Shown here piece after piece: positions 17,483-37,494 of a stretch of 64,000 nucleotides of DNA (position 1 is its first letter; the number at the start of each line of letters is the position of its first letter). The DNA is taken from contig NZ_KI911782.1 of assembly GCF_000515395.1 (NCBI RefSeq), positions 4,804,070 through 4,868,069 on the forward strand, in the 5' to 3' direction. The notes beneath the pieces were generated by a model. The model was not told the origin of the DNA. It made no database searches and was given only the letters and a program-made list of their open reading frames with translations. The translations under genes and the position numbers were made by a program. This stretch comes from Jiangella gansuensis DSM 44835 (GTDB taxonomy: Bacteria; Actinomycetota; Actinomycetes; Jiangellales; Jiangellaceae).

Positions 17483-17992
17483 ATGCCAGAGTGGGTTCCG
17501 GTCCCGGGTTCGGCGAAGGCCCGCCTCATCGAGGCCGCCCTGCACGAGTTCGAGCAGGCGGGCTACGCGGCAGTCGCCGTCACCGACCTCGCGGCGAAGG
17601 CGGGCGTCACCACCGGGTCGCTGTACCACCACTTCGGCTCGAAGCTGGGCCTCTACACAGTCGTCCGCGACGACGTCGAGAAGCGCATCACCGACCGCAT
17701 GGAAGGCGCAGCCGCCGCGGTCGGCGGCACCGGCCGAACGGCCGTCCGGGCAGCCGTCCTGGTCGCGTTCGACGCCGCGGCCCGGTTCGGCACCTGCCGG
17801 CTGCTCGGCGAGACCACAGCGGCCGACCGCCCCGATCCCATCCGGCTGACGCTGGAGGCGCTGCTCCCCGACGACGCCGGCACCGCCGCCGTCGTGCTGG
17901 CCGCGGCCTGGCGAGCCGCGCTGCTGGAGACCGCCGGCGGCGCACCGGCCGCCGCGGGCCGCCGAGCCCTCGAGTTCCTGCTCAGCGGCTGA
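17483..17992 (+). CDS. TetR-family transcriptional regulator
   Basis: 169 residues. The N-terminal helix-turn-helix reads AKARLIEAALHEFEQAGYAA ... VTDLAAKAGVTTGSLYHHFG, diagnostic of TetR. The C-terminal ligand domain is short and Ala-rich. It is divergent from the VOC gene and the two share a 52-base intergenic region with palindromes, so autoregulation and repression of the VOC gene are likely. The stop overlaps the end of the convergent aminotransferase gene by 11 bases. Confidence 0.9.
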   Translation: MPEWVPVPGSAKARLIEAALHEFEQAGYAAVAVTDLAAKAGVTTGSLYHHFGSKLGLYTVVRDDVEKRITDRMEGAAAAVGGTGRTAVRAAVLVAFDAAARFGTCRLLGETTAADRPDPIRLTLEALLPDDAGTAAVVLAAAWRAALLETAGGAPAAAGRRALEFLLSG

Positions 17993-19169
17993 GGCGGCCC
18001 AGGCGCTCGACGGCCTCCTGCAGGACCTCGTCGCGCTTGCAGAAGGCGAACCGGACCAGCGACCGGGCGGCGTCGGGGTCGTCGTGGAATGCCGAGACCG
18101 GGACGGCGGCGACCCCGGCCAGCTCCGGCAGCCGCTGGCACAGCTCGACGCCGTCGTCGAAGCCGAGCGGTACCGCGTCGGCGACGACGAAGTACGTGCC
18201 GCGCGGCACCGACACCTCGAAGCCGGCCGCCCGCAGCCCGTCGCACAAGAGGTCGCGCTTGGCCCGCAGGTCACCGGCGAGCGTCCGGTAGAAGTCGTCG
18301 CCCAGACCCAGGCCCACCGCCACCGCGGGCTGGAAAGGCCCGGCGTTGACGAACGTCAGGAACTGCTTCACCGCCCGGACGGCCGCGACGAGCTCGGCCG
18401 GGCCGTGCAACCAGCCGACCTTCCAGCCGGTGACCGAGAACGTCTTCCCGGCCGAGGAGATGGTGATGGTCTGCTCGGCCAGGCCGGGCAGCGTGGTCAT
18501 CGGGAGGTGGACGCCGTCGTCGTAGACCTGGTGCTCGTAGACCTCGTCGGTGACGACGACGGCGCCGTGCTCGCGTGCCAGCGCCCCGATCAGCTCGAGC
18601 TCGGTGCGGTCGAACACCTTGCCTGTCGGATTGTGCGGCGTGTTGACCAGGACCACTCGGGTCCGCGGGCCGAACGCGGCCCGTAGCTCCGCCTCGTCGA
18701 GGGCGAAGCCGGGCCAGCGCAGCGTCACGGTCTTGCGGACGGCGCCGGCCAGCGCGATGGACGCGGCGTAGGAGTCGTAGACGGGGTCGAAGGTGACGAC
18801 CTCGTCGCCGGGCTCGCACAACGCCAGGATGGTGGCCGCGATGGCCTCGGTCGCGCCGGCCGTGACCAGCACCTCGGCGTCGGGGTCGACGTCGAGGCCG
18901 TAGAAGCGCTTCTGATGCTGGGCCACCGCTTCGCGCAGCACCGGGACGCCGGGGCCGGGCGGGTACTGGTTCTGACCGCCGTGGATGGCCTCGCTGGCCG
19001 CGTCGAGCAGTTCGCGCGGTCCGTCGGTGTCGGGGAAGCCCTGCCCGAGGTTGATGGCACCGGTCCGGGTGGCCAGCGCGGTGATCTCGGCGAAGATCGT
19101 GGACGTGAACGGGCGCATCCGCTCTACGAGGGCTGGTCGGCGTGGTGGCACGGGTTCACGGTAGCTCAC
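17982..19169 (-). CDS. PLP-dependent class I aminotransferase, candidate KMTB-to-methionine transaminase
   Basis: 395 residues from GTG 19169; GTG 19151 or ATG 19118 are possible shorter starts. Fold-type I signature: INLGQGFPDTDGP, NTPHNPTGKVF (substrate Asn), VVVTDEVYEH (PLP-ring Asp) and SAGKTFSVTGWKVGW with the Schiff-base Lys. This arrangement fits the kynurenine/glutamine/methionine aminotransferase (YbdL-like) branch; actinobacterial relatives are often annotated DapC. It lies back-to-back with acireductone dioxygenase, whose product 4-methylthio-2-oxobutanoate needs exactly such a transamination to become methionine. That role is an inference from position and family. Confidence 0.85.
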   Translation of the reverse strand: MSYREPVPPRRPALVERMRPFTSTIFAEITALATRTGAINLGQGFPDTDGPRELLDAASEAIHGGQNQYPPGPGVPVLREAVAQHQKRFYGLDVDPDAEVLVTAGATEAIAATILALCEPGDEVVTFDPVYDSYAASIALAGAVRKTVTLRWPGFALDEAELRAAFGPRTRVVLVNTPHNPTGKVFDRTELELIGALAREHGAVVVTDEVYEHQVYDDGVHLPMTTLPGLAEQTITISSAGKTFSVTGWKVGWLHGPAELVAAVRAVKQFLTFVNAGPFQPAVAVGLGLGDDFYRTLAGDLRAKRDLLCDGLRAAGFEVSVPRGTYFVVADAVPLGFDDGVELCQRLPELAGVAAVPVSAFHDDPDAARSLVRFAFCKRDEVLQEAVERLGRLSR

Positions 19170-19214
19170 GGCCGTGCCGCACAATGGTGGGTGACATCCC
19201 GCGAGGAGGACACC

Positions 19215-19793
19215 GTGAGCCGCTTGACCGTGTGGAACGACACCGACCCCAGTACCCCCGTGCTCGACACCACCGACGCGGCCGCGATCACCGCCGAACT
19301 GGCCGCCCTGGGCGCCCGGTTCAGCCGCTGGGAGATCCAGGAGCTGCCCGACGACCCCACCCAGGACGACGTGCTGGCTGCGTACCGTTCCGAGATCGAC
19401 GACGTCATCGCCAAGGAGAAGTACACGCTGGTCGACGTGCTGCGGCTGGACCCGGCGCAGGACGACTACGACGAGAAGGCCCCGGCCGCCCGGCAGAAGT
19501 TCCTGCAGGAGCACCAGCACGACGACGACGAGGACCGCTTCTTCGCCTACGGCTCCGGCATCTTCTACCTGCACGCGGGCGGCAAGGTGTTCGCCGCGTT
19601 CTGCGAGGCCGGGGACCTCATCTCCGTCCCGGCCAACACCACGCACTGGTTCGACATGGGTACGAACCCCGAGTACATCTCGGTGCGCTTCTTCCACGAC
19701 GAGGACGGCTGGGTCGGCGACTTCACCGGCAGCGACATCTCCAGCCGGTTCCCCACCTACGACGAGATCGCCGCCACCCCCGTCGGCGGCTGA
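19215..19793 (+). CDS. mtnD: Acireductone dioxygenase
   Basis: 192 residues from GTG 19215, with GAGGAGGA just upstream. Cupin fold. Metal ligands His100, His102, Glu106 (EHQHDDDEDRF) and His144 (TTHWFD) have the same spacing as in characterised enzymes of this family. It oxidises the acireductone of the methionine salvage pathway; the Fe2+ form gives 4-methylthio-2-oxobutanoate plus formate. The gene lies next to the mtnA-K-C-B run, separated from it by a hairpin repeat, and opposite the candidate final aminotransferase. Confidence 0.93.
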   Translation: MSRLTVWNDTDPSTPVLDTTDAAAITAELAALGARFSRWEIQELPDDPTQDDVLAAYRSEIDDVIAKEKYTLVDVLRLDPAQDDYDEKAPAARQKFLQEHQHDDDEDRFFAYGSGIFYLHAGGKVFAAFCEAGDLISVPANTTHWFDMGTNPEYISVRFFHDEDGWVGDFTGSDISSRFPTYDEIAATPVGG

Positions 19794-19842
19794 ACGCGGG
19801 CCATCGCGGCCGCGGATCACGAGGCATACAACACCAGGCGTT

Positions 19843-19882
19843 CTCCCGCCTCACCAGGCAAGCATTCCTGGTGAGGCGGGAG
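19843..19882. repeat. Hairpin repeat family, copy 3 (reverse orientation, perfect 16-bp stem)
   Basis: CTCCCGCCTCACCAGG (19843-19858) pairs perfectly with CCTGGTGAGGCGGGAG (19867-19882) around the loop CAAGCATT. Read on the minus strand, the loop (AATGCTTG), the stem and the flanking CATGG and TGATCACG blocks match copies 1 and 2. It is 49 bases after mtnD and probably terminates it before the transporter operon. Confidence 0.85.
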
Positions 19883-19952
19883 TAGCCATGCCGAACGTGA
19901 TCAATGGGGAGCACCGGGTCAACGCGGTCATTCGGGGCGCCCACCAGAGTGT

Positions 19953-19973
19953 GAGACGGCGGTCTCGTATGAT
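19953..19973 (+). promoter_or_regulatory. Tentative promoter of the nucleoside-import/methionine-salvage operon
   Basis: TATGAT (19968-19973) resembles a -10 box and is preceded by an inverted repeat, GAGAC-GGCG-GTCTC (19953-19966). No good -35 is present, so activator dependence or a wrong call are both possible. The ribosome site GAAGAGGA precedes ATG 20029. No known riboswitch was recognised in this 146-base gap. Confidence 0.3.
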
Positions 19974-20028
19974 GGTCGCTGCCGCGCGCCGTGGCGCTGC
20001 CGCCGATCCGACCCGAAGAGGACACCCC

Positions 20029-21075
20029 ATGCGCATCAGTGCTCGCTCCGCCCTGGCCGGAACCGTCCCCGCGGTGCTGCTCGTCACCATGGCGGCCTGT
20101 TCCTCCGACTCCGGGTCCGGCTCCGGCGACGGTGGCGGCAACGGCGGCGAGATCGTGCTCATCACCCCCACGCCCATCGGCTCGAACAACTTCCTGCAGT
20201 TGGCCCGCGAGGGCGCCGAGGCCGCCGGCGAGGCCAACGACGTCGACGTCGAGGTGTACGAGAGCACCGACCCGGCCAGCATCCAGCAGAACATCGACGC
20301 GGCCGTCCGCGACCGCGTCGACATCGTCGTCGGCGTGTCGTTCAGCGTGCAGGACCAGTTCGCCACCTCCGCGATCGACAACCCCGACCAGCAGTTCCTG
20401 CTCGTCGACGCCTGCCCGGACGAGCAGCCGGCGAACCTCTCCTGCGCGGTCTTCCGCGAGCACGAGGCCAACTATCTGGCCGGCGTCGAGGCAGGCCTGC
20501 TCACCCAGAGCGGCGCGGTCGGGGCCGTCGCCGCCGTCGACGACCCGTTCGTGCACCGCTGGATCGACCCGTTCTTCGCCGGCGCGCAGAGCGTCAACCC
20601 GGCCGTGACCACCACCGTGCAGTACGTCGGTGGCGACAACCCGTTCGGCGACGTCGCCCGGGCCAAGGCTCAGGCCGAGATCATCGCCGGCGGCGGCGCC
20701 GACTACGTGAACGCCGCCGCATCCGGCGGCAACTCCGGGGTGTTCGAGGCCGCGGCCGAGAACGGCATCTTCGCCTTCGGTGTCGACACCAACCAGTGCC
20801 CGCTGTCCCCCGGTGTCATCGTCGACAACTCCCTCAAGCGCGTCGACGTCGCGCTGCAGTCCGCGGTCGAGGAGATCCTCGGCGGCAACGCCGGCGGTTT
20901 CCAGTCGTACGGACTGGCCGAGGACGGTGTCGGTCTGACCGGCCTGCAGGAGGGCGTCGAGGACAGCGAATGCCTCATCGCCGACCACCCGGAGATCCTC
21001 GAGCAGGTGGCGGCGGTCCGCGACCAGATCGTGTCCGGTGAGATCGTCGTCGCGGACCCGGTCGAGGCGGGATGA
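20029..21075 (+). CDS. BMP-family nucleoside-binding lipoprotein of an ABC importer
   Basis: 348 residues. The lipoprotein signal ends in VTMAAC, followed by a Ser/Gly/Asp-rich linker, so it is anchored outside the membrane. The mature part is a periplasmic-binding fold of the basic-membrane-protein (PnrA-like) family: DRVDIVVGVSFSVQDQF, NLSCAVFREHEANYLAGVEA and ADYVNAAASGGNSGVFEA. Relatives bind purine nucleosides. It is the first gene of a nine-gene overlapping run (ATGA with the ATPase) whose enzymes handle a nucleoside-derived thioribose, so 5'-methylthioadenosine is a plausible ligand. Other purine nucleosides cannot be excluded. Confidence 0.85.
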   Translation: MRISARSALAGTVPAVLLVTMAACSSDSGSGSGDGGGNGGEIVLITPTPIGSNNFLQLAREGAEAAGEANDVDVEVYESTDPASIQQNIDAAVRDRVDIVVGVSFSVQDQFATSAIDNPDQQFLLVDACPDEQPANLSCAVFREHEANYLAGVEAGLLTQSGAVGAVAAVDDPFVHRWIDPFFAGAQSVNPAVTTTVQYVGGDNPFGDVARAKAQAEIIAGGGADYVNAAASGGNSGVFEAAAENGIFAFGVDTNQCPLSPGVIVDNSLKRVDVALQSAVEEILGGNAGGFQSYGLAEDGVGLTGLQEGVEDSECLIADHPEILEQVAAVRDQIVSGEIVVADPVEAG

Positions 21076-22631
21076 CCAGTCCCGCCGTCGAGCTGGTCGG
21101 CATCGGCAAGCGGTTTGGCACGGTCGTCGCCAACGACGACGTCCACCTCACGCTGCGCCGCGGCGCCGTGCACGCCGTCATGGGCGAGAACGGGGCCGGC
21201 AAGTCGACCCTGATGTCCGTGCTCTACGGGCTGTACCGGCCCGACAGCGGGCACATCGTGCGCGACGGCCGGCGGGTGGAGTTCACCAGCCCACTCGACG
21301 CCATCGCCGAGAAGCTCGGCATGGTGCACCAGCACTTCCGGCTGTTCGAGTCGATGACGGTCGCCGAGAACGTCGTGCTCGGTCAGGAGCCGCGCCGGTC
21401 CGGCTTCGGCCGGCGCGGCCTGATCGATCGCGACGCCGCCGCGGCCAGGGTGCGTGACCTGGCCGAGCGCTACGGCCTCGTGGTGGACCCGCGGGCCCGG
21501 GTCGGCTCCCTGTCGGCGGGGGCACGGCAACGCGTCGAGATCCTCAAGGCGCTGCACCGCGAGGCGGAGGTGCTCATCCTCGACGAGCCGACCGCGGTGC
21601 TGACGCCGGGCGAGGTGCGCTCGCTGTTCTCCGTCATCCGCCGGGCCGCCGACGACGGCGCCACCGTCGTCCTGGTGACCCACAAGGTCCACGAAGTGCT
21701 CGACGTCAGCGACGAGGTGACGGTGCTGCGCGACGGCAGGGTCACCGCCCACGTGCACACCGCCGACACCACTGCCGGTGAGCTGGTCACGGCCATGACC
21801 GGCCGCGAGGTCGTGCCGGCCCGCAACACCGGCACGGGGGAACCGGGCGAACCGGTGCTCCAGGTCGAGCACCTCGCCGTCAGCGACGGCGAGCGCACCC
21901 TCGTCGACGATGTGTCACTGACGGTGCGCCGCGGCGAGATCGTCGGCATCGCGGGGGTGTCCGGCAACGGCCAGCACGACCTCGTGGCGACGCTGCTCGG
22001 CACGCACCGCGCCGCCGCCGGGACCGTCCGGATCGCCGGTCACGACGGCACCGCCGTGTCGGTGCGCGACCGGCGGGCTCTGGGGGTGGCCGCCATCCCC
22101 GAGGACCGGCGCGGTGAAGGGACCGCCGTCACGCTGTCGGTCGCCGAGAACCTGGCCCTGGGCCACCACCGCACCCCGCCCATCGGCTCCAGCCGTGGAC
22201 TGCGCCGTGGCTGGATGTCCGGCCGGGCCGTCCGCGACTCGGCGCGCCGGCTGATCGCCGAGCACGACATCCGCACCGCCTCCGAGCAGTTGCCCGTGGG
22301 CACGCTGTCCGGCGGCAACGCGCAGAAGCTGGTGGTCGCGCGCGAGCTGGCGCACGAGGCGCCCCTGCTGATCGCCGAGCAGCCCACACAGGGCGTCGAC
22401 ATCGGCGCCATCGAGGCGATCCACCGCCGGCTCATCGAGTACCGCGACGCCGGCAACGGCGTCCTGCTGGTCTCGCACGAGATCAGCGAGCTTCTCGCGC
22501 TGGCCGACCGGATCCTGGTCATGCTGGGCGGCCGGGTCGTCGCGCACTTCGACCGGTCCGAGGCGACCCCGGAGAACATCGGCGCGGCCATGTCCGGCGC
22601 CGCGAGCACCACCTCGGCGGTGACGCCATGA
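21072..22631 (+). CDS. Two-domain ABC importer ATPase (nucleoside/sugar type)
   Basis: 519 residues with two ATPase domains. The first has Walker A GENGAGKST (about 38-46), a divergent signature (SLSAGARQRVEI) and Walker B VLILDEPTAVL. The second has the degenerate P-loop GVSGNGQHD, typical of RbsA-like and BMP-type ATPases, signature LSGGNAQKLVVA and LIAEQPTQGVD. This architecture accompanies BMP binding proteins and two permeases. It powers import by the permeases encoded immediately downstream. ATGA overlaps occur at both ends. Confidence 0.93.
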   Translation: MTSPAVELVGIGKRFGTVVANDDVHLTLRRGAVHAVMGENGAGKSTLMSVLYGLYRPDSGHIVRDGRRVEFTSPLDAIAEKLGMVHQHFRLFESMTVAENVVLGQEPRRSGFGRRGLIDRDAAAARVRDLAERYGLVVDPRARVGSLSAGARQRVEILKALHREAEVLILDEPTAVLTPGEVRSLFSVIRRAADDGATVVLVTHKVHEVLDVSDEVTVLRDGRVTAHVHTADTTAGELVTAMTGREVVPARNTGTGEPGEPVLQVEHLAVSDGERTLVDDVSLTVRRGEIVGIAGVSGNGQHDLVATLLGTHRAAAGTVRIAGHDGTAVSVRDRRALGVAAIPEDRRGEGTAVTLSVAENLALGHHRTPPIGSSRGLRRGWMSGRAVRDSARRLIAEHDIRTASEQLPVGTLSGGNAQKLVVARELAHEAPLLIAEQPTQGVDIGAIEAIHRRLIEYRDAGNGVLLVSHEISELLALADRILVMLGGRVVAHFDRSEATPENIGAAMSGAASTTSAVTP

Positions 22632-23728
22632 CCGGCACGGCCACCACCGATCCGGCCACCGAGCCCGCACCCGCCGGCCGGCCGAGCCTGCTGCGCACCG
22701 CCGTCCGGCACCCCGCTCTCGTGCCCGTCGGCGCCGTCGTCGTGGCCGTCCTGGTCGGCGCCGTCGTCATGCTGGCGTCGGGGATCGACCCGATCCGCGC
22801 CTACACGGCCGTCATCGAGGGCGCGCTGGCCACCGACAACCTCGACTACACGCTCTCGGTGTTCGCGCTGATCTGCGGCATGGCGCTGGTGTTCGCCATC
22901 CCGCTGCGGATGGGCGAATACAACCTCGGCGGCAACGGCCAGGTGGTGCTGGGCGGCATCACCGCCGCCGCGGTGGGGCTGTACGCGCCGCTGCCCGGCG
23001 TGCTGCTGGTGGCCGTAGCGATCCTGGCCGGCGCCGCCGCGGCCGCGGTGTTCGCGGCCATCTCCGCGCCGTTGTCGGAGCGGCTGCGCATCCCGGTCAT
23101 CATCTCCACGCTGTTGCTGTCGCCGATCGCCGTCGCGTTCGGCTCGTACCTGGTCCGGTTCCGGATGACCGACACCGGCTCCGGGGTGTCCCAGACGCCG
23201 CGGCTGCCCGACGCCGCGCACCTGGGGTCGCTGGGCGACCTGCGCTACGCGAACGTCGGGCTGATCCTGGTGCTGCTGGCGCTGCTGGCGTTCTGGCTGG
23301 TCGATTCCCGGACGGCGGTCGGCTACGAGTTGCGTACGCTGGGCGCCAGCCGGCGGTTCGGCGCGTACGGCGGCGTGCACATCGGCCGGCTGAACCTGGG
23401 CGCCATGGCCGCGGCCGGCGCCGTCGCCGGTCTGGTCGGCGCGATCATGGTGCTGTCGCCGCCGTACCGGTTCATCGACGGCGCGCTGACCGCGCCCGGG
23501 TACACGTTCGCCGGGGTGGCCGCGGCGCTGCTGGCCGGTGGCCGCCCCGCGCTGCTGCCGCTGACCGTCGCGGTCTTCACGATCCTGCAGGTCGGCGGCT
23601 CCGGCATGGAACGCGACGCCGACGTGCCGCGGCAGCTGTCCGACGTGCTGCAGGCGGTGGTCATCATCGTCCTTGCGCTGCGGACGGTGGTCGAGGCACG
23701 ACGCGCGCGAGCGGGGAGGTCCGGGTAG
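22628..23728 (+). CDS. ABC importer permease 1 (nucleoside type)
   Basis: 366 residues, about 8-10 membrane spans, of the branched-chain/ribose permease superfamily. Typical features are GLVGAIMVLSPPYRFIDG and the C-terminal GYTFAGVAAALLAGGRPALL stretch of BMP-system permeases. It would pair with permease 2 to make the channel. The gene begins at an ATGA overlap with the ATPase, and permease 2 starts directly after its TAG. Confidence 0.9.
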   Translation: MTGTATTDPATEPAPAGRPSLLRTAVRHPALVPVGAVVVAVLVGAVVMLASGIDPIRAYTAVIEGALATDNLDYTLSVFALICGMALVFAIPLRMGEYNLGGNGQVVLGGITAAAVGLYAPLPGVLLVAVAILAGAAAAAVFAAISAPLSERLRIPVIISTLLLSPIAVAFGSYLVRFRMTDTGSGVSQTPRLPDAAHLGSLGDLRYANVGLILVLLALLAFWLVDSRTAVGYELRTLGASRRFGAYGGVHIGRLNLGAMAAAGAVAGLVGAIMVLSPPYRFIDGALTAPGYTFAGVAAALLAGGRPALLPLTVAVFTILQVGGSGMERDADVPRQLSDVLQAVVIIVLALRTVVEARRARAGRSG

Positions 23729-24631
23729 ATGAACGTCCTGGAATGGGGCTTCGTCGCCGCGGTGCTGACCGCGACGACGCCGGTCCTTCTGGCGGCGCTG
23801 GGCGGTGCACTGTGCGCCCAGGCAGGCGTGTTCAACATCGCGCTCGAGGGCCAGATGCTGTGGGGCGCGTTCGCCGCCGTCGTCGGCTCGCACTACTCCG
23901 GCAACGCGTGGGTGGGTGTCGGTCTGGCGCTGGTCAGCACCGCAGTGTTCTCCGCCATCCTGGCGGTCGGCTCCCCACGGTGGGCGGCCGATCCGATCAT
24001 CCTCGCCATCGGCATCAACCTGCTCGCGGTCGGGCTCACCGGCTACGGCATCCGGGTGCTGTTCGACGTGTCCGGCACGTTCTCGCCCGACGGTCTGCAG
24101 GGTCTGGACCGGATGTCGTTCCTGTCCGATGTCCCGGTGCTGGGCACGGTGCTCGGACGGCAGTCCCCGCTGGTGCTGCTGGCCATCCTGCTGGCGCTGG
24201 GCCTGGCGTTCTGGGTGAACCGCAGCGCCACCGGGCTGCGGTTGCGCGGCGTCGGTGAGCATCCGGAGGCCGCCGGCAGCCTCGGTGTCGACGTCCAGAA
24301 GTACCGCACGACGGTGGTGCTGGCCGCCGGTGGGCTGTGCGGGCTGGCCGGGGCACAGCTCTCGCTGGGCAACGTCACCGTCTTCACCGAGAACATGACG
24401 GCCGGCCGCGGCTGGATCGCCGTCGCGGCGGTGATGCTGGCGGCGAACCGGCCGGCCTGGGTGCTGGCCGCCTGCCTCGGCTTCGGCGCCGCCGAGGCGT
24501 TCGGGTTCCGTCTGCAGGGTGTCGGCGCGCCGCAGCAGCTCGCCGACGCCGCGCCGTACATCGTCACCTTGGTCGTGCTGGTGGCGACCCGGCTGCGCTG
24601 GCTGCGCCGGACCAGGGAGGTGGCCGTATGA
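23729..24631 (+). CDS. ABC importer permease 2 (nucleoside type)
   Basis: 300 residues with about 8 hydrophobic spans. LAALGGALCAQAGVFNIALE and GQMLWGAF form the family's N-terminal hallmark; GVGEHPEAAGSLGVDV is the cytoplasmic coupling loop. Second channel subunit of the importer. Its stop overlaps the ATG of the MtnA-like gene (ATGA), which ties transport directly to the salvage enzymes. Confidence 0.92.
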   Translation: MNVLEWGFVAAVLTATTPVLLAALGGALCAQAGVFNIALEGQMLWGAFAAVVGSHYSGNAWVGVGLALVSTAVFSAILAVGSPRWAADPIILAIGINLLAVGLTGYGIRVLFDVSGTFSPDGLQGLDRMSFLSDVPVLGTVLGRQSPLVLLAILLALGLAFWVNRSATGLRLRGVGEHPEAAGSLGVDVQKYRTTVVLAAGGLCGLAGAQLSLGNVTVFTENMTAGRGWIAVAAVMLAANRPAWVLAACLGFGAAEAFGFRLQGVGAPQQLADAAPYIVTLVVLVATRLRWLRRTREVAV

Positions 24632-25683
24632 CGCTGCCGAACCCGATTCTCGACCGGTCGGTCGTCCTGGCCGACGACGGCGGCAGCGTCGCCGTCCTCG
24701 ACCGCCGGGTGTTCCCGGCCGAGACGTCCTGGGTGACCTGCAGGACGCCGCAGGACGTCGCCGCGGCCATCCGCGACATGGTGACGCAGTCGTCCGGGCC
24801 CGCCTACGCCGCGGCGGCGGGGATGGCGCTGGCCGCGCACCAGGCCGCCGGCCTGCCGCTGGCCGACGCGCGCGATCGGCTGGCCGCGGCCGGTGCGGCG
24901 CTGGCGACCGCCCGGCCCACCAACAGCCATCCCCGCATCGTGGTGGAGGGCATCCTGGCCGCCACGGCAGCGGCCGGTTCCACCGACGAGCTGGTCGAGG
25001 CCGCCGTCGACGCCGCCCGGGCCGCCGACGACGAGTACCGCAGCCGCAGCCGAGCCCTCGGTGCGGCCGCCGCGGACCTGCTGCCCGACGGAGTCCGGGT
25101 GCTGACCCACTGCTGGATGGACGGCTACCTCATCGAGCTGGTCCGCGCGGCGCACGAACGCGGCCGGCGCTATCGCTGGGTGGCCACCGAGACCCGCCCC
25201 TACCTGCAGGGCGCCCGGCTGACCGCGCACACGCTGGCCGAACTGGGCCAGGACGTCACGCTGATCACCGACTCGATGGCCGCCGCCGCGCTGGCGCCGG
25301 ACTCGACGCTGGGCCGCGTCGACGCCCTGGTCACCGCCGCCGACCGGGTCGCCATGGACGGTTCGGTTGCGAACAAAGTCGGAACGCTGGGGCTGGCCGC
25401 CGCGGCCCGGCACTTCGGGGTCCCGTTCTACGCGCTGGTACAGGCGCCGGACCCCACCACCGCCACCGGCGCGGACATCGTCGTCGAGGAGCGCGACCCG
25501 GCCGAGGTGTTCGCCACGCTCGGCCGGCGCACCGCATCGCCGCTGCTTTCCCAGGCGTGGTACCCGGCCTTCGATGTCACACCGCCGGAGCTGGTCACCC
25601 GCATCGTCACCGACCGGGGGCCGTTCGCTCCGGACCGGCTCGCGGACTACTCGACGCACGACCCCACCCCAGGAGAGGCATGA
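24628..25683 (+). CDS. mtnA: MtnA-like S-methyl-5-thioribose-1-phosphate isomerase (divergent)
   Basis: 351 residues of the eIF2B/MtnA fold. The two catalytic residues are in place: Cys162 in VLTHCWMDG and Asp239 in AADRVAMDGSVANKVGT, close to Cys160/Asp240 of the Bacillus enzyme. ATETRPYLQGARLTA is also conserved. The surroundings differ from textbook MtnA (THCNAG and NGDVANKIGT would be expected), so this is an outlying branch and could act on a related 5-deoxy-pentose-1-phosphate. Position between importer, nucleoside hydrolase and MTR kinase favours conversion of methylthioribose-1-phosphate to methylthioribulose-1-phosphate. Confidence 0.8.
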   Translation: MTLPNPILDRSVVLADDGGSVAVLDRRVFPAETSWVTCRTPQDVAAAIRDMVTQSSGPAYAAAAGMALAAHQAAGLPLADARDRLAAAGAALATARPTNSHPRIVVEGILAATAAAGSTDELVEAAVDAARAADDEYRSRSRALGAAAADLLPDGVRVLTHCWMDGYLIELVRAAHERGRRYRWVATETRPYLQGARLTAHTLAELGQDVTLITDSMAAAALAPDSTLGRVDALVTAADRVAMDGSVANKVGTLGLAAAARHFGVPFYALVQAPDPTTATGADIVVEERDPAEVFATLGRRTASPLLSQAWYPAFDVTPPELVTRIVTDRGPFAPDRLADYSTHDPTPGEA

Positions 25684-26660
25684 GCGAGACCCGTCACGTC
25701 ATCTACGACACCGACACCGGCATCGACGACGCGCTGGCACTGCTGTACCTGGCCGGCCGGCCCGACGTGGATCTCGCCGCCATCACCACGGTCTACGGCA
25801 ACACGCCGATCGACGCGGTGGTGCCGAACGTCGGGCACGTGCTCGAGCTCGCCGGGCTGCCGGACGTGCCGGTGGCGGTCGGTGCCGCGGGCCCGATCGT
25901 GGGCGAGGCACGGATCGCCTCGCACGTCCACGGCGTCGACGGGCTCGGCGACGTCGTCGCGGACAAGACCCCGCCGCGGAACATCGTCGACGGCAGCGCC
26001 GCGCAGTACCTCGTCGATCTCGCCCGCGAACGGCCCGGCTATTACGACCTGTTGCCCGTCGGCCCACTCACCAACGTCGGGCTGGCCCTGGAGATCGAGC
26101 CAGAGCTCCTGACGCTGTTCCGCTCGGTCGTGATCATGGGCGGCTCCGGACCGTTCCCGCCGCTGGGCGTGACCCAGATGGTGGACGCGAACATCCACAA
26201 CGACGCCGAGGCCGCCCGCCGGGTGGTGCATGCACCCAGGAACCGGCTGGTCAGCGTGGGCGTGAACGTCACCGCGACGACCGTCGTCGACGAGGCCGCC
26301 GTGGCCCGCCTGCACGCGTCGGGCACCACCTGGGGCGAGTTCTCGGCCGCCGTCCTGGAGTCGTACATGAACTTCTACCAGTACGCCTGGGGACGCCGGG
26401 TGTCCCCCGCGCACGACGGCCTGGCGGCCGGGCTGCTGCTGCAGCCGGACTGGATCACGGCCAGCCGGACCGGCCCGGTGGACATCACCTCCGACGGCTT
26501 CTTCGTCCGGGCGCACCTGATGGAGACCGCCGACGGCGACCCGGTGCCCTGGCTGGCCGAGCCGACGCCGGACACCGTCGTCGTCACCGACGTGAACCGC
26601 GAGGCGTTCCTGGACGACTTCCTCGGCATCCTCACCACCGGGGGCGAGCCGACCCGGTGA
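25680..26660 (+). CDS. Nucleoside hydrolase (IUNH family), candidate MTA-cleaving enzyme
   Basis: 326 residues. The N-terminal Ca2+-binding motif DTDTGIDDA supplies Asp10, Asp12, Asp16 and Asp17. ANIHNDAEAA is the ribose-binding loop and PAHDGLA carries His245/Asp246, the region of the leaving-group acid in this family. It hydrolyses nucleosides to base plus ribose. It has 4-base overlaps with mtnA upstream and mtnK downstream. No MTA phosphorylase or Pfs-type nucleosidase is encoded nearby, so it is well placed to release methylthioribose from MTA. That substrate is inferred; inosine, uridine or 5'-deoxyadenosine are alternatives. Confidence 0.88.
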   Translation: MSETRHVIYDTDTGIDDALALLYLAGRPDVDLAAITTVYGNTPIDAVVPNVGHVLELAGLPDVPVAVGAAGPIVGEARIASHVHGVDGLGDVVADKTPPRNIVDGSAAQYLVDLARERPGYYDLLPVGPLTNVGLALEIEPELLTLFRSVVIMGGSGPFPPLGVTQMVDANIHNDAEAARRVVHAPRNRLVSVGVNVTATTVVDEAAVARLHASGTTWGEFSAAVLESYMNFYQYAWGRRVSPAHDGLAAGLLLQPDWITASRTGPVDITSDGFFVRAHLMETADGDPVPWLAEPTPDTVVVTDVNREAFLDDFLGILTTGGEPTR

Positions 26661-27886
26661 CCGCGACGTATCCGCTGCTCGAGGCCGGCGACGTCGTCGA
26701 CTACCTACGACGGTGCGGTCTCGACCGGCTGCTCGGAGACGGCCGCGCGGAGGTCCGCGACGTCACCGGCGGCAACATGAACCGGGTCTTCGTGGCGCGG
26801 GCCGGCGGCCGCGGCGTCGCGGTCAAGCAGGCACCGCCGTGGGTGCAGGTGGCCGGTCCGGACTGGCCGGCCAGCCCGGACCGCATCGCCGCCGAGGCCC
26901 GCGCGTACGGCTACCTCGCCGGCCTGGTGCCGGACATCGTCCCAGTGGTTCACGCCTTCGACGCGTCGTCGTACGTGCTGGTCATGGAGGACCTGTCGGA
27001 CCTGCGGGTGCTGCGCGACGTGCTGGTCGAGGGCGTGGGTGCGGCGGCTGCCGGTACGGCTGCTCCTGGCGAGCCGGACGCCGTCGGCCTCGGGGAGGCG
27101 GTCGGCCGGTTCGTCGGCGAGCTGACGTTCGCCACCAGCGACCTCACCATGACGGCGGCGGAGCGGGCCGCGCTGACCGCCGCCGCCGTGAACCCGGACC
27201 TGTGCCAGCTCACGCTCGACGTCCTGCTGGACGAGCCGTACCGGCCGCACGAGCACAACCGGTTCGACCCGGCCCTGCGCGCCGACGTCGAGGCGATGTA
27301 CGCCGACGACGCGCTGAAGGTCGCGGTGTCCGAGCTGCGATCGGTGTTCCGCAGCCGGGCGGAGGCGCTGATCCACGGTGACCTGCACACCGGCTCGGTC
27401 ATGGTCGGACGGCGAGACGGCGCGGCCGCGGTGAAGGTGTTCGACCCGGAGTTCTCGTTCGTCGGCCCGATCGGGTTCGACCTGGGCCTGTGGTGGGCGA
27501 ACCTGGCCATCGCCGCCGCGGCGGCCCGGGCGAGCGGCCGCACGGACCTCGCCGACGCCCGGCAGGCCGCGGTGCGGGCCAGCTGGGACGCGTTCGAGCG
27601 GGTGTGGCGCTCGCGCTGGCCGTCGCGCGTGGACACCGCCTTCGCTGACGGCTACCTGGACAGCTGGTTGGCCCGGATCCGCCGCGAGGCCGTCGGTTTC
27701 GCCGGTATCGAGGCGGTGCGCCGGGTGGCCGGGTACTCGCACGCCGCCGACCTGACGACCCTGCCCGACGACGTGCGCGTACCGGCTCAGCGCCGGGTGC
27801 TGCGCGCCGCCGTCCGGTGGATCACCGAGCATGCCGCTGCTACGTCGGCGGCCGACCTTCCCAACGTCCCGACGGAGGAACCGTGA
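26657..27886 (+). CDS. mtnK: S-methyl-5-thioribose kinase
   Basis: 409 residues of the aminoglycoside-phosphotransferase-like kinase fold. Features: N-terminal GGNMNRVFVAR (nucleotide loop), GVAVKQAPPWV with the ATP-contacting Lys, LVMEDLSDL hinge, LIHGDLHTGSVMV catalytic loop and VFDPEFSFVGPIGFDLG with the Mg-binding Asp. The LHTGSV and DPEF motifs are typical of MtnK. It phosphorylates methylthioribose to methylthioribose-1-phosphate. GTGA overlaps at both ends. A paralog is encoded at 36182-37405. Confidence 0.92.
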   Translation: MTATYPLLEAGDVVDYLRRCGLDRLLGDGRAEVRDVTGGNMNRVFVARAGGRGVAVKQAPPWVQVAGPDWPASPDRIAAEARAYGYLAGLVPDIVPVVHAFDASSYVLVMEDLSDLRVLRDVLVEGVGAAAAGTAAPGEPDAVGLGEAVGRFVGELTFATSDLTMTAAERAALTAAAVNPDLCQLTLDVLLDEPYRPHEHNRFDPALRADVEAMYADDALKVAVSELRSVFRSRAEALIHGDLHTGSVMVGRRDGAAAVKVFDPEFSFVGPIGFDLGLWWANLAIAAAAARASGRTDLADARQAAVRASWDAFERVWRSRWPSRVDTAFADGYLDSWLARIRREAVGFAGIEAVRRVAGYSHAADLTTLPDDVRVPAQRRVLRAAVRWITEHAAATSAADLPNVPTEEP

Positions 27887-28599
27887 CCGTATCCATCCGC
27901 GCGCGCACCGTGGTCCTCGACCTGGAGGGCACCACCAGCGCGGCCGGCTTCATCCTCGGCGACCTGTACGACTACGCCCGGCCGCGGCTGCTGGGCTGGC
28001 TGCGCGACCACGCCGACGACGAGGCCGTGTCGGCTGCCCGGGCGCAGACGGTCGCCGACGGCGGGCTTCCCGCCGACGCCAGCGACGAGGACGTCGTCGC
28101 CGTCCTGCACGCCTGGATGAACGACGACGTGAAAGCCACCCCGCTGAAGACCCTGCAGGGCCAGATCTGGGCCGAGGGGTTCGCCCGCGGTGAGATCACC
28201 TCGCACTTCTTCGACGACGTCATCCCGAAGCTCCGGGTCTGGCACGCGGCAGGGGTCGGGCTGGCCGTGTTCTCGTCCGGCTCGGTCACCTCGCAGCGGC
28301 CGTGGTTCGCCCACTCACCCGACGGCGACCTCAGCCCGCTGATCACCGCCTACTTCGACACCGTCAACGCCGGCCCGAAGAAGGTGGCCACGTCGTACGA
28401 CGCGATCGCGGCCGCGTTGGCGGTCCCTGCGGCGGAGCTGGTGTTCTTCTCCGACCACCCGGATGAGCTGACGGCGGCGACGGCGGCCGGCTGGCAGGTG
28501 GTGGCGTTCGCCCGGCCCGGTGAGCCGTGGGGGTCCGCCGACTTCGGCGCGGCGCCGGTCGTAGCGTCGTTCGACGAGGTGGAGGTGACCCTGCCGTGA
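27883..28599 (+). CDS. mtnC: Enolase-phosphatase of methionine salvage
   Basis: 238 residues of the HAD superfamily. Motif I is VVLDLEGTTS (nucleophile Asp), motif II FSSGSVTSQ, the Lys loop lies in GPKKVATSYDAIA and motif III is FFSDHPDEL. The long cap with LQGQIWAEGF is characteristic of MtnC. It converts 2,3-diketo-5-methylthiopentyl-1-phosphate to the acireductone in two steps, feeding mtnD. Overlaps mtnK and mtnB by GTGA. Its presence argues for the full methionine salvage route rather than a shunt ending at an aldolase. Confidence 0.93.
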   Translation: MTVSIRARTVVLDLEGTTSAAGFILGDLYDYARPRLLGWLRDHADDEAVSAARAQTVADGGLPADASDEDVVAVLHAWMNDDVKATPLKTLQGQIWAEGFARGEITSHFFDDVIPKLRVWHAAGVGLAVFSSGSVTSQRPWFAHSPDGDLSPLITAYFDTVNAGPKKVATSYDAIAAALAVPAAELVFFSDHPDELTAATAAGWQVVAFARPGEPWGSADFGAAPVVASFDEVEVTLP

Positions 28600-29255
28600 G
28601 CGAGCCGTTCCTGCCGCCACAGTCCTCCATCGACCGCGCGGGCGCCGAACTGGCGGCCGAGGCGGCCCGGTTCGCCGGGCTGGGCTGGATGCGCGGCACC
28701 TCCGGGAACCTGTCGACGGTGCTGAACCGCGACCCGCTGCGTCTCGCCGTCACCGCGTCCGGCCTGGACAAGGGTGAGCTGACGTACCACGACGTCGTGG
28801 TGGTGGACGCGGACGGCGCGTCGGTGCCCGGCCAGCGGCGCCCGGATGCCGTCCCCTCCGCCGAGGCCGGCCTGCACGCCCGGATCGCCCGCGTGACCGG
28901 CGCCGGCGCGGTCATCCACGTGCACGCCATGGCCGCGGTGCTGGCCGCCGAGTACTGGCCGGAGGGTGTGCTGCTCAAGGACCTCGAGATGCTCAAGGGC
29001 ATCGGGCACCTCGCCCACGACGAGGAGGTCGTCGTCCCGGTCATCCCGAACGGCCAGGACATGGTGGCCGTCGGCGACGCCTTCGAGGCGGCCCACGTTC
29101 CTGGCGTCCCGGGTGTGCTGCTGGCCCGGCACGGCTTCTACGGCTGGGGCGCCGACCTGCGGCAGGCCCGCTGGCACGTGGAGATCCTCGAGTGGCTGCT
29201 GCGGTTTCAGGTGGCGCTGCACACGGGGAATGACTCCGGGGGTGCGCGCACTTAG
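28596..29255 (+). CDS. mtnB: Methylthioribulose-1-phosphate dehydratase
   Basis: 219 residues of the class II aldolase/adducin fold. MRGTSGNLSTVL, TASGLDKGELT, PSAEAGLH, the metal-binding HVH and a late RHGFYGWG match the MtnB pattern. It dehydrates methylthioribulose-1-phosphate. It is the last gene of the overlapping run that begins with the BMP lipoprotein. Aldolases of the DHAP shunt share the fold, but the mtnC neighbour supports MtnB. Confidence 0.9.
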   Translation: MSEPFLPPQSSIDRAGAELAAEAARFAGLGWMRGTSGNLSTVLNRDPLRLAVTASGLDKGELTYHDVVVVDADGASVPGQRRPDAVPSAEAGLHARIARVTGAGAVIHVHAMAAVLAAEYWPEGVLLKDLEMLKGIGHLAHDEEVVVPVIPNGQDMVAVGDAFEAAHVPGVPGVLLARHGFYGWGADLRQARWHVEILEWLLRFQVALHTGNDSGGART

Positions 29256-33967: not shown

Positions 33968-35953
33968 TCACCGCAGAGAGGATCGTCTTGGGCATCTCCT
34001 GGACCAAACCGGAGCGATTCCACACACGTGAAAGCTCACGACGCGGTCAGTACGGTGGCGTGTCGTCCGGATCGGGTGGCTGGCCGGCGCGGTCGCTCTG
34101 GTCGCCGGCGGTGTCATGGTGGTCGGCGTCGTGGGGTGGTTTTGCGGTCGGGCTGGTGGGGCCAACTGGTTCGGGTGGTTTCCGGTAGGTGTGTGCCCGG
34201 TGGGGCTGGTCCACACGGTGGTGCCGTCGGGCTGCTGCTGCACGCGCCAGCGGCCGCGGTGTTTGAGCAGGTGATGGGTCCGGCACAGTGGCTGGCAGTT
34301 GCAGGCGGTGGTGGGGCCGCCGGCGGCGTGGGCGACGACGTGGTCGATGTCGCAACGTGTCGCGGGGTGGTGGCAGCCGGGGGTGCGGCAGGTTCGGTCG
34401 CGCAGGATGACGTGGTCGATGAGTGCTTGGGTGGGTCGGTAGCGGGTGTGGCCGTGGTCGAGGTACCGGCCGCTGGCCGGGTCGGTGCCCACCCACTGCC
34501 AGATCCCGGCCGCGGCCAGATGCCTGCCGATGTGGGCCGGGATCGGGCCGTAGCCGTCCAGGTGCGCAGGTTCGTCGCTGAGCCCGGCCAGTGACCCGAA
34601 CGCGAACGTCACCTGCACCGCCACCGCCCGCCCCTGCGCCGACGCGAGCGGGATCGCCACCCGCCCCCGCGACGAGGAGGAGCCGGCCACCCCCGGCAAC
34701 GACGCGCCAGCCTCGCCCGTGCCTGGTGGTCCCGCGGTGTCCGGCGGCGGAGGCGTAGCCCCGGCACCGGCCGGTGAGAGGTCCAGCCACGTCCCGGGCG
34801 TGTCGTCTCCACGATCGCAGCGGCAGGCACAGCCGAGCCGATGCATCATCCCCGTCGCGGACGTGCCCGGGACCGTGGACACGACCGGATCTGGGCCCCC
34901 ACGCGGGGTCGGGTTCGGGTTCGGGTGTGGGCCGGGGCCGATGTGTTGGATGTCCAGCGCCGCCCACGCCAACGCCGCGAGCGCGTCCGCGCGACACTGC
35001 GCCACCGTACGAACCGGCTGGCGTCCGGCGCCACGGTCACCACGCTTCAGGGTGCCGGCCGCGGCATCCAGGACCGTCTTCACCGCCATCGCATCCTCCG
35101 CCGGCAAGAACGCCTGCAGATACGCCATCGCATCCGCCGCCGGCGTGATCGTCACATCACGACGCTCCCGCGCTTCCCGGCACCGCTGCTCGGTCTGGAC
35201 CGGCGCCAACTCGTGCAACAACTGCTGGGTGCGGCGCCGCAGCGCCACCGAGTCCAACGCCGCCGCCACCGGCAACACCGCCGCGTCCACCCGCCGCCGC
35301 ACCTGCTCGTCCTGTCCACCCAACTCGCCGGTGATCACCTTCGCGCGACGCTCATCGATCAGCCCGCCCGCCAGCGCCTGCTGGGTGGCGGGAAAGTCCT
35401 GCACCAGTTGCACCGCGTGCCCGATCAGGTTCTCCGCCTGCCGGGCCGTCGTCACCGTCCTCGCGGCGACCTCGACCGCGGTGTTCGTGACCGGATTCAC
35501 CGATCGATACCCACACCGTTCGGGTTGCAGTTCCGGGCGGGCGGTCAACTCCGCCAACGCCGCCGCCTGCTGTGCCTGCGCCCAAGAGATCAGCCGGCCC
35601 CACCCCGCCACAGCCTCCACCACGTCATACGTCGACACCGCCCGCACCTGCACCGCCGCCAGGACCTCGGCCAGCTCCGGCCCCGGCGACACACCCTCGA
35701 CCGGCACCCTGCCGTCGACGTCACCGTCGGCGGCGTCGTCGTCAACGGCCGCGTCGTCGTCGAGCAGGGCAATCAGCGCGTCGTCGAGAACCCCGTCCGG
35801 CAACACGCCACCAGCCACATCGGCGTCACCGTCGGGCAGCTCGTCCGGGTCGAAACTCACCCATGCCCCGGTCCGCGGATCGCAGGCCACCAGACCCGCC
35901 GCCGCGGGATCAGCGTCCCGCAACGATCCACCCAGACCACCGTTTCCGAACAT
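33968..35953 (-). CDS. DUF222 / HNH endonuclease-domain protein (13E12-repeat type)
   Basis: 661 residues from ATG 35953; two upstream in-frame ATGs (35986, 36022) are possible. It has an acidic N-terminal stretch, then the helical DUF222 domain (about 90-350, with VSTYDVVEAVAGWGRLISWA), a Pro/Gly-rich linker and a C-terminal HNH module: RDRTCRTPGCHHPATRCDID, H-V-V-x-H, and CRTHHLLKH with zinc-type Cys residues. These proteins are multicopy and variable in actinobacteria; a nuclease role is presumed but unproven. The last ~30 residues (RVVSFHVCGIAPVW...) look foreign and may read into the IS remnant's flank. Confidence 0.85.
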   Translation of the reverse strand: MFGNGGLGGSLRDADPAAAGLVACDPRTGAWVSFDPDELPDGDADVAGGVLPDGVLDDALIALLDDDAAVDDDAADGDVDGRVPVEGVSPGPELAEVLAAVQVRAVSTYDVVEAVAGWGRLISWAQAQQAAALAELTARPELQPERCGYRSVNPVTNTAVEVAARTVTTARQAENLIGHAVQLVQDFPATQQALAGGLIDERRAKVITGELGGQDEQVRRRVDAAVLPVAAALDSVALRRRTQQLLHELAPVQTEQRCREARERRDVTITPAADAMAYLQAFLPAEDAMAVKTVLDAAAGTLKRGDRGAGRQPVRTVAQCRADALAALAWAALDIQHIGPGPHPNPNPTPRGGPDPVVSTVPGTSATGMMHRLGCACRCDRGDDTPGTWLDLSPAGAGATPPPPDTAGPPGTGEAGASLPGVAGSSSSRGRVAIPLASAQGRAVAVQVTFAFGSLAGLSDEPAHLDGYGPIPAHIGRHLAAAGIWQWVGTDPASGRYLDHGHTRYRPTQALIDHVILRDRTCRTPGCHHPATRCDIDHVVAHAAGGPTTACNCQPLCRTHHLLKHRGRWRVQQQPDGTTVWTSPTGHTPTGNHPNQLAPPARPQNHPTTPTTMTPPATRATAPASHPIRTTRHRTDRVVSFHVCGIAPVWSRRCPRRSSLR

Positions 35954-36181: not shown

Positions 36182-37405
36182 TCATCGGGTCGCTGTCCCA
36201 CGCAGTACGGCCAGGGCCGCCGCGCTGAGCCGGGCTACGTCGGCGTCGTCGTTGCGGAGGACGGCTAGACCGCGGGCTGCCCGCAGCACACCGCGGGCGG
36301 CGCCTTCGCGCGGGCCCTCGTCGAGCGTCTCGATGTCGCTGACCTTGGCGAAGCCGACGATGCGACGCACGGCTTTCGCGGCGGCGTAGCCGGCGGCGTC
36401 GTGGCGCACTTCGGCGAGCAGTAATTCCAGCATGTCGTCGCCCCAGACCCGTGGGTCCAGGCGCCGCGGCCACAGCGCCCGCAGCTCCGTCTCGAACGCC
36501 CGCCACAGCCGCTCGGGCAGCTCTGCCAGGAGTACCGCCGCTCGCGCGTCGTCGCCCAGAGCCGTGGAACGGGCCGCGGCCAGCAGCAGGTTCGCCCATA
36601 CGGCGCCGAGGTCGAACGCGATGGGCCCGTAGAAGCCGAACTCGCTGTCGAACGCCCGCACCGACGCCGGCAGTCCGTCACCGGCGGCGCGGACGAACAC
36701 CGAACCGGTGTGCAGGTCGCCGTGGATGAGCGCCTGCGCCCGGGTCATGAACGCGAACTTCAGCAGCCCGATCTCGCGCAGCAGCTCGCGGTCGGAGCGC
36801 AGCGCGTCGACGTCGGCCTTGTTGGCCGGCAGCACCCGGTTGTGCTCATGGTCGATGTACGGTTCGGTGAACACGAGATCCTCGGTGATCTCGCACAGTT
36901 CGGGGTTCACCGCCGCCGCGACCACCCGCTTCTGCTCCAGCGGATCCAGTCCGAGCACCGAGGTGCCGAACGCGACCCGGGCGACGTAGCGGCCCAGCTC
37001 CGCGGCGGCGTACTCGTGCGGCCGGCCGGCGTTGAGCTCGCCGCGCCAGACCACGTGGTCGGACAGGTCTTCGATGGCCAGCACGTAGTGGGCCCGGTCG
37101 AAGTGGTACAGCGCCGGGACGTGCCCGGGGTCGATCGCCTGGTGGCGGCCCAGGATGAGCGCCTCGCGGGCTGAGCGCTCCCGTGTCATCGGCCAGGACG
37201 GGTCGGTGCGCACGTGCGGCAACGACTGCTTGAGCACCAGGGACGCGCCGTGGGCGTCACGCACGACGAAGACCAGGTTGAGGTTGCCGTCGCCGACCTC
37301 GACCACCGGCTCCAGCGCGCCGACGTCGACACGTCCGGCCAGCTCCGGCACCGACGCCAGGTACGCCGGGACCGTCTCGGCGCTCAGGTTCTGCCAGTCC
37401 GGCAT
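36182..37405 (-). CDS. mtnK: S-methyl-5-thioribose kinase, second copy
   Basis: 407 residues from ATG 37405, with a strong GGAGGAG six bases upstream. Same fold and motifs as the kinase at 26657: GDGNLNLVFVV, SLVLKQSLPHV, LAIEDLSDH hinge, LIHGDLHTGSVFV catalytic loop and FDSEFGFYGPIAFDLG. It is closer to textbook MtnK (MPDWQNLSAET start, SWPMTRERSARE, YIDHEHNR) than the cluster copy. It stands alone, 7 kb beyond the salvage run. The two kinases may differ in substrate (methylthioribose versus 5-deoxyribose) or regulation. Confidence 0.9.
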   Translation of the reverse strand: MPDWQNLSAETVPAYLASVPELAGRVDVGALEPVVEVGDGNLNLVFVVRDAHGASLVLKQSLPHVRTDPSWPMTRERSAREALILGRHQAIDPGHVPALYHFDRAHYVLAIEDLSDHVVWRGELNAGRPHEYAAAELGRYVARVAFGTSVLGLDPLEQKRVVAAAVNPELCEITEDLVFTEPYIDHEHNRVLPANKADVDALRSDRELLREIGLLKFAFMTRAQALIHGDLHTGSVFVRAAGDGLPASVRAFDSEFGFYGPIAFDLGAVWANLLLAAARSTALGDDARAAVLLAELPERLWRAFETELRALWPRRLDPRVWGDDMLELLLAEVRHDAAGYAAAKAVRRIVGFAKVSDIETLDEGPREGAARGVLRAARGLAVLRNDDADVARLSAAALAVLRGTATR

Positions 37406-37494
37406 GCGGTCTCCTCCTACGCTCGCACCGATCTGCCGTATGACGGTACGACGCCGGCTCGACGGAAGACTCGGCAGTAGGCCACCAAACACCG

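Follow-up and report, generated by a model that had tools for sequence, protein, structure and literature searches.

Organisation of the locus

The stretch of Jiangella gansuensis DSM 44835 analysed here (contig NZ_KI911782.1, positions 4,804,070 to 4,868,069; 64,000 nucleotides, referred to in its whole length as the window) contains a run of nine plus-strand genes at 20029-29255 that joins a BMP-type ABC importer and a nucleoside hydrolase (NH) to enzymes of methionine salvage, and which is probably an operon for the uptake and salvage of 5'-methylthioadenosine (MTA). The source genome is a single contig of 5,585,780 bases, and J. gansuensis YIM 002T has been described as a desert-soil actinomycete (PMC5292007). 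The run was already delineated in a first-pass annotation made from the sequence alone, and re-checking of its coordinates, open reading frames, starts and stops gave the same picture: seven junctions are 4-base overlaps and one is an exact abutment (23728/23729). The nine genes are presumably co-transcribed.

Families were called using Pfam profiles and NCBIfam curated cut-offs (paired values below are score/cut-off). The run opens with a BMP/PnrA-type substrate-binding lipoprotein (20029..21075; PF02608, 142.7 bits with a cut-off of 24.1), followed by a two-domain ABC ATPase (21072..22631; two ABC_tran stretches), permease A (22628..23728; BPD_transp_2, 93.2 bits) and permease B (23729..24631; BPD_transp_2, 117 bits). 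Then come a variant MtnA-like methylthioribose-1-phosphate isomerase (24628..25683; PRK05720, TIGR00524 and alignment), the NH, a proposed MTA nucleosidase (25680..26660; PF01156, IU_nuc_hydro, 224.2 bits with a cut-off of 34.2), the methylthioribose kinase MtnK (26657..27886; TIGR01767, 327.7/275), the enolase-phosphatase (acireductone synthase) MtnC (27883..28599; TIGR01691, 193/128.1) and the methylthioribulose-1-phosphate dehydratase MtnB (28596..29255; TIGR03328, 163.5/137.05). Apart from MtnA, discussed below, these profile matches confirm the families first proposed for the lipoprotein, ATPase, permeases, NH, MtnK, MtnC and MtnB.

Spread of the run across actinobacteria

In order to see the gene order in other genomes, as the first-pass annotation had suggested, an MtnK alignment was compared with named genomes; at least 477 relatives were found and the best 80 loci were mapped with the window proteins, a design in which runs lacking a near MtnK stay unseen. 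Fourteen of these loci carry the cluster NH together with the ATPase, both permeases, MtnC, MtnB and an MtnD homologue. The BMP lipoprotein is present in 13 of them, the exception being a contig of a metagenome-assembled genome (MAG), L062, whose end falls inside the permease genes, and MtnA lies between or beside the other genes in 12. These NH-type loci come from Jiangella endophytica, Cryobacterium, Sphaerisporangium, the actinobacterial MAG, Herbidospora (3), Thermocatellispora, Acrocarpospora (2), Microbispora, Microtetraspora, Planotetraspora and Nonomuraea. Besides the MAG, ten named genera of actinobacteria are represented. The nearest named relative by sequence, within the best 80 of at least 477 MtnK relatives, is J. 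endophytica. In other genera the proteins of the run are about 50-70% identical to those of the window, and recurrence of the linkage at this distance makes chance implausible as its cause.

A further six of the 80 loci, all from Streptomyces, have the BMP protein and ATPase beside mtnA and mtnBCD. Five more Streptomyces loci (L050, L051, L056, L057, L060) contain mtn genes, but the genomes concerned yielded no cluster-type BMP (the best E values are 2e-20 to 9e-27, compared with about 1e-100 in the six). The remaining 55 loci show other layouts, many with a match to a sugar-type ABC ATPase adjoining MtnK, which agrees with mtrACB, a methylthioribose (MTR) importer predicted in Bacillus and Enterobacteria (PMC3228920).

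MtnK is rare in the wider group. Among 396 genomes of the phylum, with four candidates scored per genome, strong MtnK matches occurred only in the window genome and one other (G108), with weak matches (E 1e-4 to 1e-6) in five more. An NH match better than E 1e-70 was obtained in 11 of 393 genomes of the class, nine of them Jiangella; of the remaining two, G702 carries only the NH, and in about 9 kb on each side of it none of the other window genes gave a match. A lone NH-family member with the DAN motif kept lies in another actinobacterial family (L278:9299-10252), with no match to other window genes nearby.

The 5' pocket of the nucleoside hydrolase

The cluster NH shares with the group I NHs (RihA, CfNH, plant NRh) the fold, the DTDxGxDD motif and the catalytic His-Asp pair; its AlphaFold2 model (mean predicted local distance difference test score, pLDDT, 85) superimposes on the plant NRh 6zk1 with a Z score of 38 and a root-mean-square deviation of 2.5 over 305 residues. 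It differs from these enzymes in the residues that grip the 5'-OH of the substrate: in RihA, Asn158 and Glu164 form hydrogen bonds to O5' of the ligand (PMC2898832), and at these two positions the window NH has Gly163 and Asp169. We aligned the window NH and its 14 cluster orthologues with 50 other actinobacterial NHs. In all 15 cluster NHs, Gly and Asp replace the Asn and Glu and the loop that runs from the GG to the DAN motif contains no Asn, while D10, D12, D16, D17, H84, N171, H245 and D246 are retained throughout. As five of the 50 controls are lone Jiangella NHs that fall inside the cluster clade, outside-clade counts were taken from the other 45: Asn is present in 38, Glu in 43 and the Gly and Asp pair in none (all 50 controls: Asn 38, Glu 44). 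In the tree, for which two of the 45 (L178, L185) were too short, the 15 cluster NHs and the five Jiangella NHs form one clade with a support of 100/100 and a stem of 0.81. These five have Asp (four) or Glu (one) at the Glu position and Gly (two) or a gap (three) at the Asn position.

The significance of this exchange lies in the behaviour of the known enzymes. All 19 of 19 NH complexes examined in PMC12648331 hydrogen-bond the 5'-OH, and 5'-deoxyinosine is reported there as no substrate for the Crithidia NH; hydrogen bonding of this type is seldom seen in MTA nucleosidases (MTANs, 4/45) and MTA phosphorylases (MTAPs, 1/21), whose contacts to the sulphur side chain include few hydrogen bonds.

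The cluster NH is the only PF01156 gene of the genome. Two PF01048 proteins are encoded, a DeoD-type PNP and a PUNP, both scoring under the MTAN and MTAP cut-offs, and classification of these PF01048 members revealed no recognisable MTA nucleosidase (MtnN) or MTA phosphorylase (MtnP) in the genome. With one NH and no recognisable MTAN or MTAP, the cluster NH is thus the best candidate for MTA cleavage, and would handle MTA made inside the cell as well. As a PF01156 protein it does not belong to PF01048/TIGR01704 and is proposed to be MtnN-like in action only.

A different enzyme in the Streptomyces operons

No cluster-type NH was seen in the six Streptomyces genomes that carry the BMP operon: five have a best NH hit (E 9e-34 to 7e-40) that falls outside the cluster clade, and the sixth gave no NH hit at all. 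In all six operons the gene directly after permease B encodes a PF01048 protein instead (e.g. L225:11124-11900), and the three of these that were scanned passed no specific NCBIfam cut-off. The nearest solved relatives of the L225 protein are 3mb8, which we take to be a Toxoplasma enzyme, and then Plasmodium PNP entries. Methylthioinosine is cleaved by PfPNP, in which His7 lies 3 Å from the 5'-OH and exchange of this residue for Ser or Phe moves the preference towards the methylthio substrate (PMC3885546). At the His7 position the Streptomyces enzymes have Val (four) or Ile (two), as judged by alignment for L225 and from the corresponding position in the remaining five. The slot enzyme (L225 and five loci) lies close to the apicomplexan PNPs and is a candidate for an MTA phosphorylase within the PNP-I family.

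Two unrelated splitting enzymes therefore occupy one slot, both without the 5'-OH grip of their family, as would be expected if the imported compound were a 5'-modified nucleoside. This enzyme swap is, short of proof, the strongest argument for such a substrate that the sequences offer.

The importer

A PnrA-like lipoprotein, a two-domain ATPase and two BPD_transp_2 permeases make up the architecture of the importer, and the ATPase is 47% identical to that of the other BMP transporter of the genome. The AlphaFold2 model of the lipoprotein (mean pLDDT 88) comes closest in fold to Lbp, PnrA and BmpD with bound nucleoside (Z 33-35); scores for the BMP family overall reach down to Z 29 and sugar-binding proteins begin at Z 22. 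Riboflavin-binding RfuA scores Z 30.6, so that the BMP fold includes non-nucleoside binders. With the sugar-type profile Peripla_BP_4 the lipoprotein reached 22.9 bits, below the cut-off of 35.1. Its Cys24 is invariant in the 15 of 15 sequences aligned.

We compared 20 cluster BMPs (the window, 13 from NH-type loci and six from Streptomyces) with 19 controls, which were kept from 25 loci after removal of duplicates and short rows, are mostly ordinary Streptomyces BMPs and include one sequence, L218, that was left in although it is apparently misaligned or no BMP. The base-stacking Phe pair and the ribose-binding Asp/Asp/Lys are retained in all 20 cluster BMPs; in BmpA numbering the residues kept are the equivalents of Phe27, Asp98, Phe176, Val224, Asp225 and Lys242 (for residue roles see PMC13325309 and PMC7093131). 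The aromatic cradle and ribose-binding residues are therefore those of PnrA, BmpD and Lbp, yet the cluster BMPs are a distinct subfamily with a TPxxGxNxFLxL-like loop: positions around the pocket have changed together, with Asn28 replaced by Leu in all 20, Phe151 by Trp in 14 and by Tyr in 6, and the GG pair mostly by AA or DV. In all, 45 columns separate the two groups (a residue shared by at least 90% of the cluster sequences and present in at most 15% of the controls). This pattern, together with the model, supports a nucleoside-binding pocket with altered specificity. That the ligand is MTA and that transport is inward are points that we infer.

The salvage enzymes and the MtnA variant

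MtnK, MtnC and MtnB exceed their curated cut-offs and MtnD is encoded nearby, as expected of aerobic methionine salvage. MtnA was initially called MtnA-like, and this holds at subfamily level: the protein barely passes PRK05720 (272.8/271), passes TIGR00524 (200.4/185.85) and falls short of the equivalog TIGR00512 (220.9/279). It has QSSGP in place of the RGAP motif, an HCWxD sequence and a 7-residue deletion following the HC motif of the catalytic Cys. The Cys and Asp, presumably catalytic as in B. subtilis MtnA, align and are retained. The same variant is found in the window and in all ten NH-type loci aligned (two more stand outside the alignment), and the two Streptomyces MtnAs aligned are canonical. 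Only one MtnA match was seen in the genome (E 0.001; 21 of 42 first-look candidates scored), leaving the variant as the only candidate isomerase seen. In the two Acrocarpospora loci MtnA is missing from the run (L093, L108), and a homologue with the canonical CNTG motif is encoded elsewhere in the genome, so that these strains may still have an intact pathway. This suggests that the variant and canonical forms are interchangeable on MTR-1-phosphate.

Neighbouring genes and evolution within Jiangella

The gene for the acireductone dioxygenase MtnD (19215..19793, plus strand; PF03079 (ARD), 95.4/27, scanned as 19203-19793; no match in the NCBIfam scan) lies upstream of the run, as first described, with one refinement: a terminator-like inverted repeat (19843..19882, plus strand; 16-bp stem, 8-base loop), for which the stretch 19831-19895 gives a predicted fold of -41.8 kcal/mol, stands between mtnD and the lipoprotein gene. 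On account of this stem-loop, mtnD may be transcribed apart from the nine genes.

Beside mtnD, on the minus strand, is a pyridoxal phosphate-dependent aminotransferase (17982..19118; PRK07777, 596.4/553) that could catalyse the last step and scores slightly below the cut-off of PRK09082, 'methionine aminotransferase' (403.7/420). The YbdL/KAT-like enzyme of the first-pass annotation is thus present, though not as a specific part of the system, and we rejected it as a core component: it sits by the lone NH in seven of seven mapped Jiangella genomes without the rest of the run. Of the 14 NH-type loci, only that of J. endophytica (L049) contains it, and the nine other loci with any aminotransferase match (28-32% identity) are all of non-NH-type layouts. 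The aminotransferase is better described as a neighbour than as an established part.

Of 12 Jiangella genomes, the full run is present in two (the window genome and G402, J. endophytica), the NH only in seven, and three gave no NH match of the cluster kind at E 1e-50. In six of the seven the lone NH is flanked by the same aminotransferase and iron-siderophore-type binding protein as the full run; the seventh lies at a contig end. The simplest reading is that the import and salvage genes were deleted and the NH retained, and retention of the NH alone is expected if it is needed to clear MTA. Lone NHs at the syntenic site were noted at L219, L220, L221, L222, L223, L227 and L228. The 5' loop is altered further in four of the five lone Jiangella NHs aligned; in some it is shortened (DTN or ETN), which may reflect another shift in substrate.

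A second, orphan MtnK is encoded on the minus strand of the window (36182..37435; TIGR01767, 350.5/275). In J. endophytica (L044, 1936-6886), a binding protein, a sugar-type ABC ATPase and a permease lie directly before the second MtnK and are likely an MTR importer; the Streptomyces counterpart of the binding protein is weakly RbsB-like (61.3/337). Since the second MtnK stands alone in the window, J. gansuensis probably lost the MTR importer there and kept the nucleoside importer. The open reading frame adjoining the orphan mtnK (33968-36022, minus strand) is presumably HNH-endonuclease-like, with a proline/threonine-rich tail. It may mark the boundary of a deletion or insertion.

Proposed function and alternatives

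Taken together, we consider it quite likely that these genes form an operon by which a 5'-methylthio purine nucleoside, most probably MTA, is taken up and salvaged. The lipoprotein would take MTA outside the cell and the permeases and ATPase would carry it in, where the NH, its 5' pocket rebuilt for a non-hydroxyl substituent, would split it into MTR and adenine. MtnK would phosphorylate MTR, the MtnA variant isomerise the product, MtnB dehydrate it and MtnC form the acireductone, which the nearby MtnD would oxidise to the keto acid that an aminotransferase converts to methionine. Import of MTA or a close 5'-modified analogue, with hydrolysis and return of methionine and a base, was what the first-pass annotation had put forward; the linkage across ten named genera, the loss of 5'-OH-binding residues in both the NH clade and its Streptomyces replacement, and the fact that no other gene product of this genome is recognisable as an MTA-cleaving enzyme all argue for it. 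With moderate confidence we go one step further: an MTA nucleosidase unrelated to MtnN and MtnP would have evolved in actinobacteria from the calcium-dependent NH family, been joined to a BMP-type MTA importer and be the sole MTA-splitting enzyme in some Jiangella, which would explain its survival alone, with the re-tooled PNP-family enzyme of the Streptomyces slot as a second origin of this function.

Several observations weigh against this interpretation. A classical NH from T. vivax hydrolyses 5'-fluoro-5'-deoxyadenosine (PMC7408626), and hence the 5'-OH grip is no absolute bar to 5'-modified substrates; the Asp that replaces Glu in the cluster NH is still acidic and could in principle contact a 5'-OH; and the 5' loop is a weak part of the NH model (block means of pLDDT 69 and 60, residues 151-170). 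In case of the Streptomyces enzyme, whose top PDB match is 3mb8, negligible methylthioinosine activity is reported for Toxoplasma PNP (PMC3885546). Of the methylthio pocket of PfPNP, the L225 protein keeps Val66 and Met183 and has, as compared by eye, Leu for Val73 and Gln for Tyr160, the latter a residue termed critical for this pocket (PMC3885546). The RGAP motif of MtnA is lost; the presence of the NH only in seven of 12 Jiangella genomes indicates that it can be useful without import and salvage; and no known regulatory RNA of Rfam, such as an S-adenosylmethionine (SAM) riboswitch, was found in window positions 15000-40000 at E up to 1, nor any element in six loci scanned at gathering scores.

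Among other substrates, 5'-deoxyadenosine, the by-product of radical-SAM enzymes, or a mixture of 5'-deoxynucleosides with MTA as one of several, would make the run a detoxification and salvage unit. 5'-Deoxyadenosine likewise lacks the 5'-OH, so the changes in the NH pocket fit it, and MtnK and MtnA homologues process 5-deoxyribose in the dihydroxyacetone phosphate (DHAP) shunt (PMC12632272). That route, however, uses an aldolase (ald2), whereas here the third enzyme passes the dehydratase model TIGR03328, no class II aldolase stands in place of MtnB, and MtnB, MtnC and MtnD make most sense for a sulphur route to methionine; we regard 5'-deoxynucleosides as the main substrate as rather unlikely. 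Still less probable is an importer for ordinary purine nucleosides with an ordinary purine/pyrimidine hydrolase, the mtn genes merely sharing the transcript and processing internal MTA. Several solved BMP proteins do bind ordinary nucleosides, the top NCBIfam model for the NH is a uridine hydrolase (although at 150.5/450, far under its cut-off) and the DeoD-type PNP of the genome might cleave some MTA, but against it stand the changed 5'-OH residues of all 15 cluster NHs, the missing His of the unrelated Streptomyces enzyme, the recurrence of the mtn linkage across genera and the presence in the genome of another BMP transporter. Least probable is a nucleoside with another base (e.g. 5'-methylthioinosine) or a larger 5'-thio analogue from other microbes, for although the NH family often prefers inosine or uridine, the enzyme in the Streptomyces slot has a near relative in PfPNP, for which methylthioinosine is a substrate, and a base-side loop residue of the BMP protein is altered (the Asn28 equivalent), MTA is the common cellular metabolite (PMC8910321) and no deaminase was noticed in the mapped runs, which were searched with the window's own genes only.

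Relation to known systems

The MTA operon proposed here has the MtnK, A, B, C and D steps and their clustering in common with classical methionine salvage (Enterobacteria, Bacillus; MtnN/K/A/B/C/D), from which it differs in the IU-type NH proposed for the MtnN/MtnP step and in the nucleoside importer inside the operon. In mtrACB an importer is likewise tied genetically to mtn genes; that system, however, is sugar-type (RbsB-like) and serves free MTR, whereas here a BMP-type nucleoside importer is combined with a base-splitting enzyme. J. endophytica has both gene sets, mtrACB-like and BMP-type. MTR transporters are also mentioned in a review of salvage (PMC6302742), and exogenous MTA is used by Rhodospirillum rubrum (PMC4958253) and by E. 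coli strains whose operon consists of mtnK, mtnA, ald2 and a permease gene (PMC12632272). The latter DHAP shunt of extraintestinal E. coli also combines mtnK and mtnA with a transporter gene for the use of exogenous MTA and 5'-deoxynucleosides; as outlined in PMC12632272 it has an aldolase, a single putative permease and no MtnB, MtnC or MtnD, and serves carbon use as opposed to the return of methionine proposed here.

The idea that coupling of an importer to methionine salvage is undescribed therefore has to be narrowed, mtrACB having been predicted before, and stands for the version with a BMP-type nucleoside importer and an NH, of which no description was found in the mostly open-access literature consulted. 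A dedicated ABC importer for MTA was not found in that literature either. We know of no earlier one. The parts are known; their assembly, in which a BMP importer would supply a proposed MTA nucleosidase of the NH family, would be new.

Implications

If the interpretation is correct, this would be, as far as we know, the first dedicated ABC importer for MTA, and the NH would represent a third enzyme family for the MTA-splitting step. Specific functions are thereby suggested for one subfamily of NHs and one subfamily of BMP-family importers, and methionine salvage would be under-called wherever searches seek MtnN or MtnP alone. The run would moreover mark, at the genetic level, bacteria that live as scavengers of MTA from other organisms, and leads to the prediction that MTA is a traded sulphur source among soil actinobacteria.

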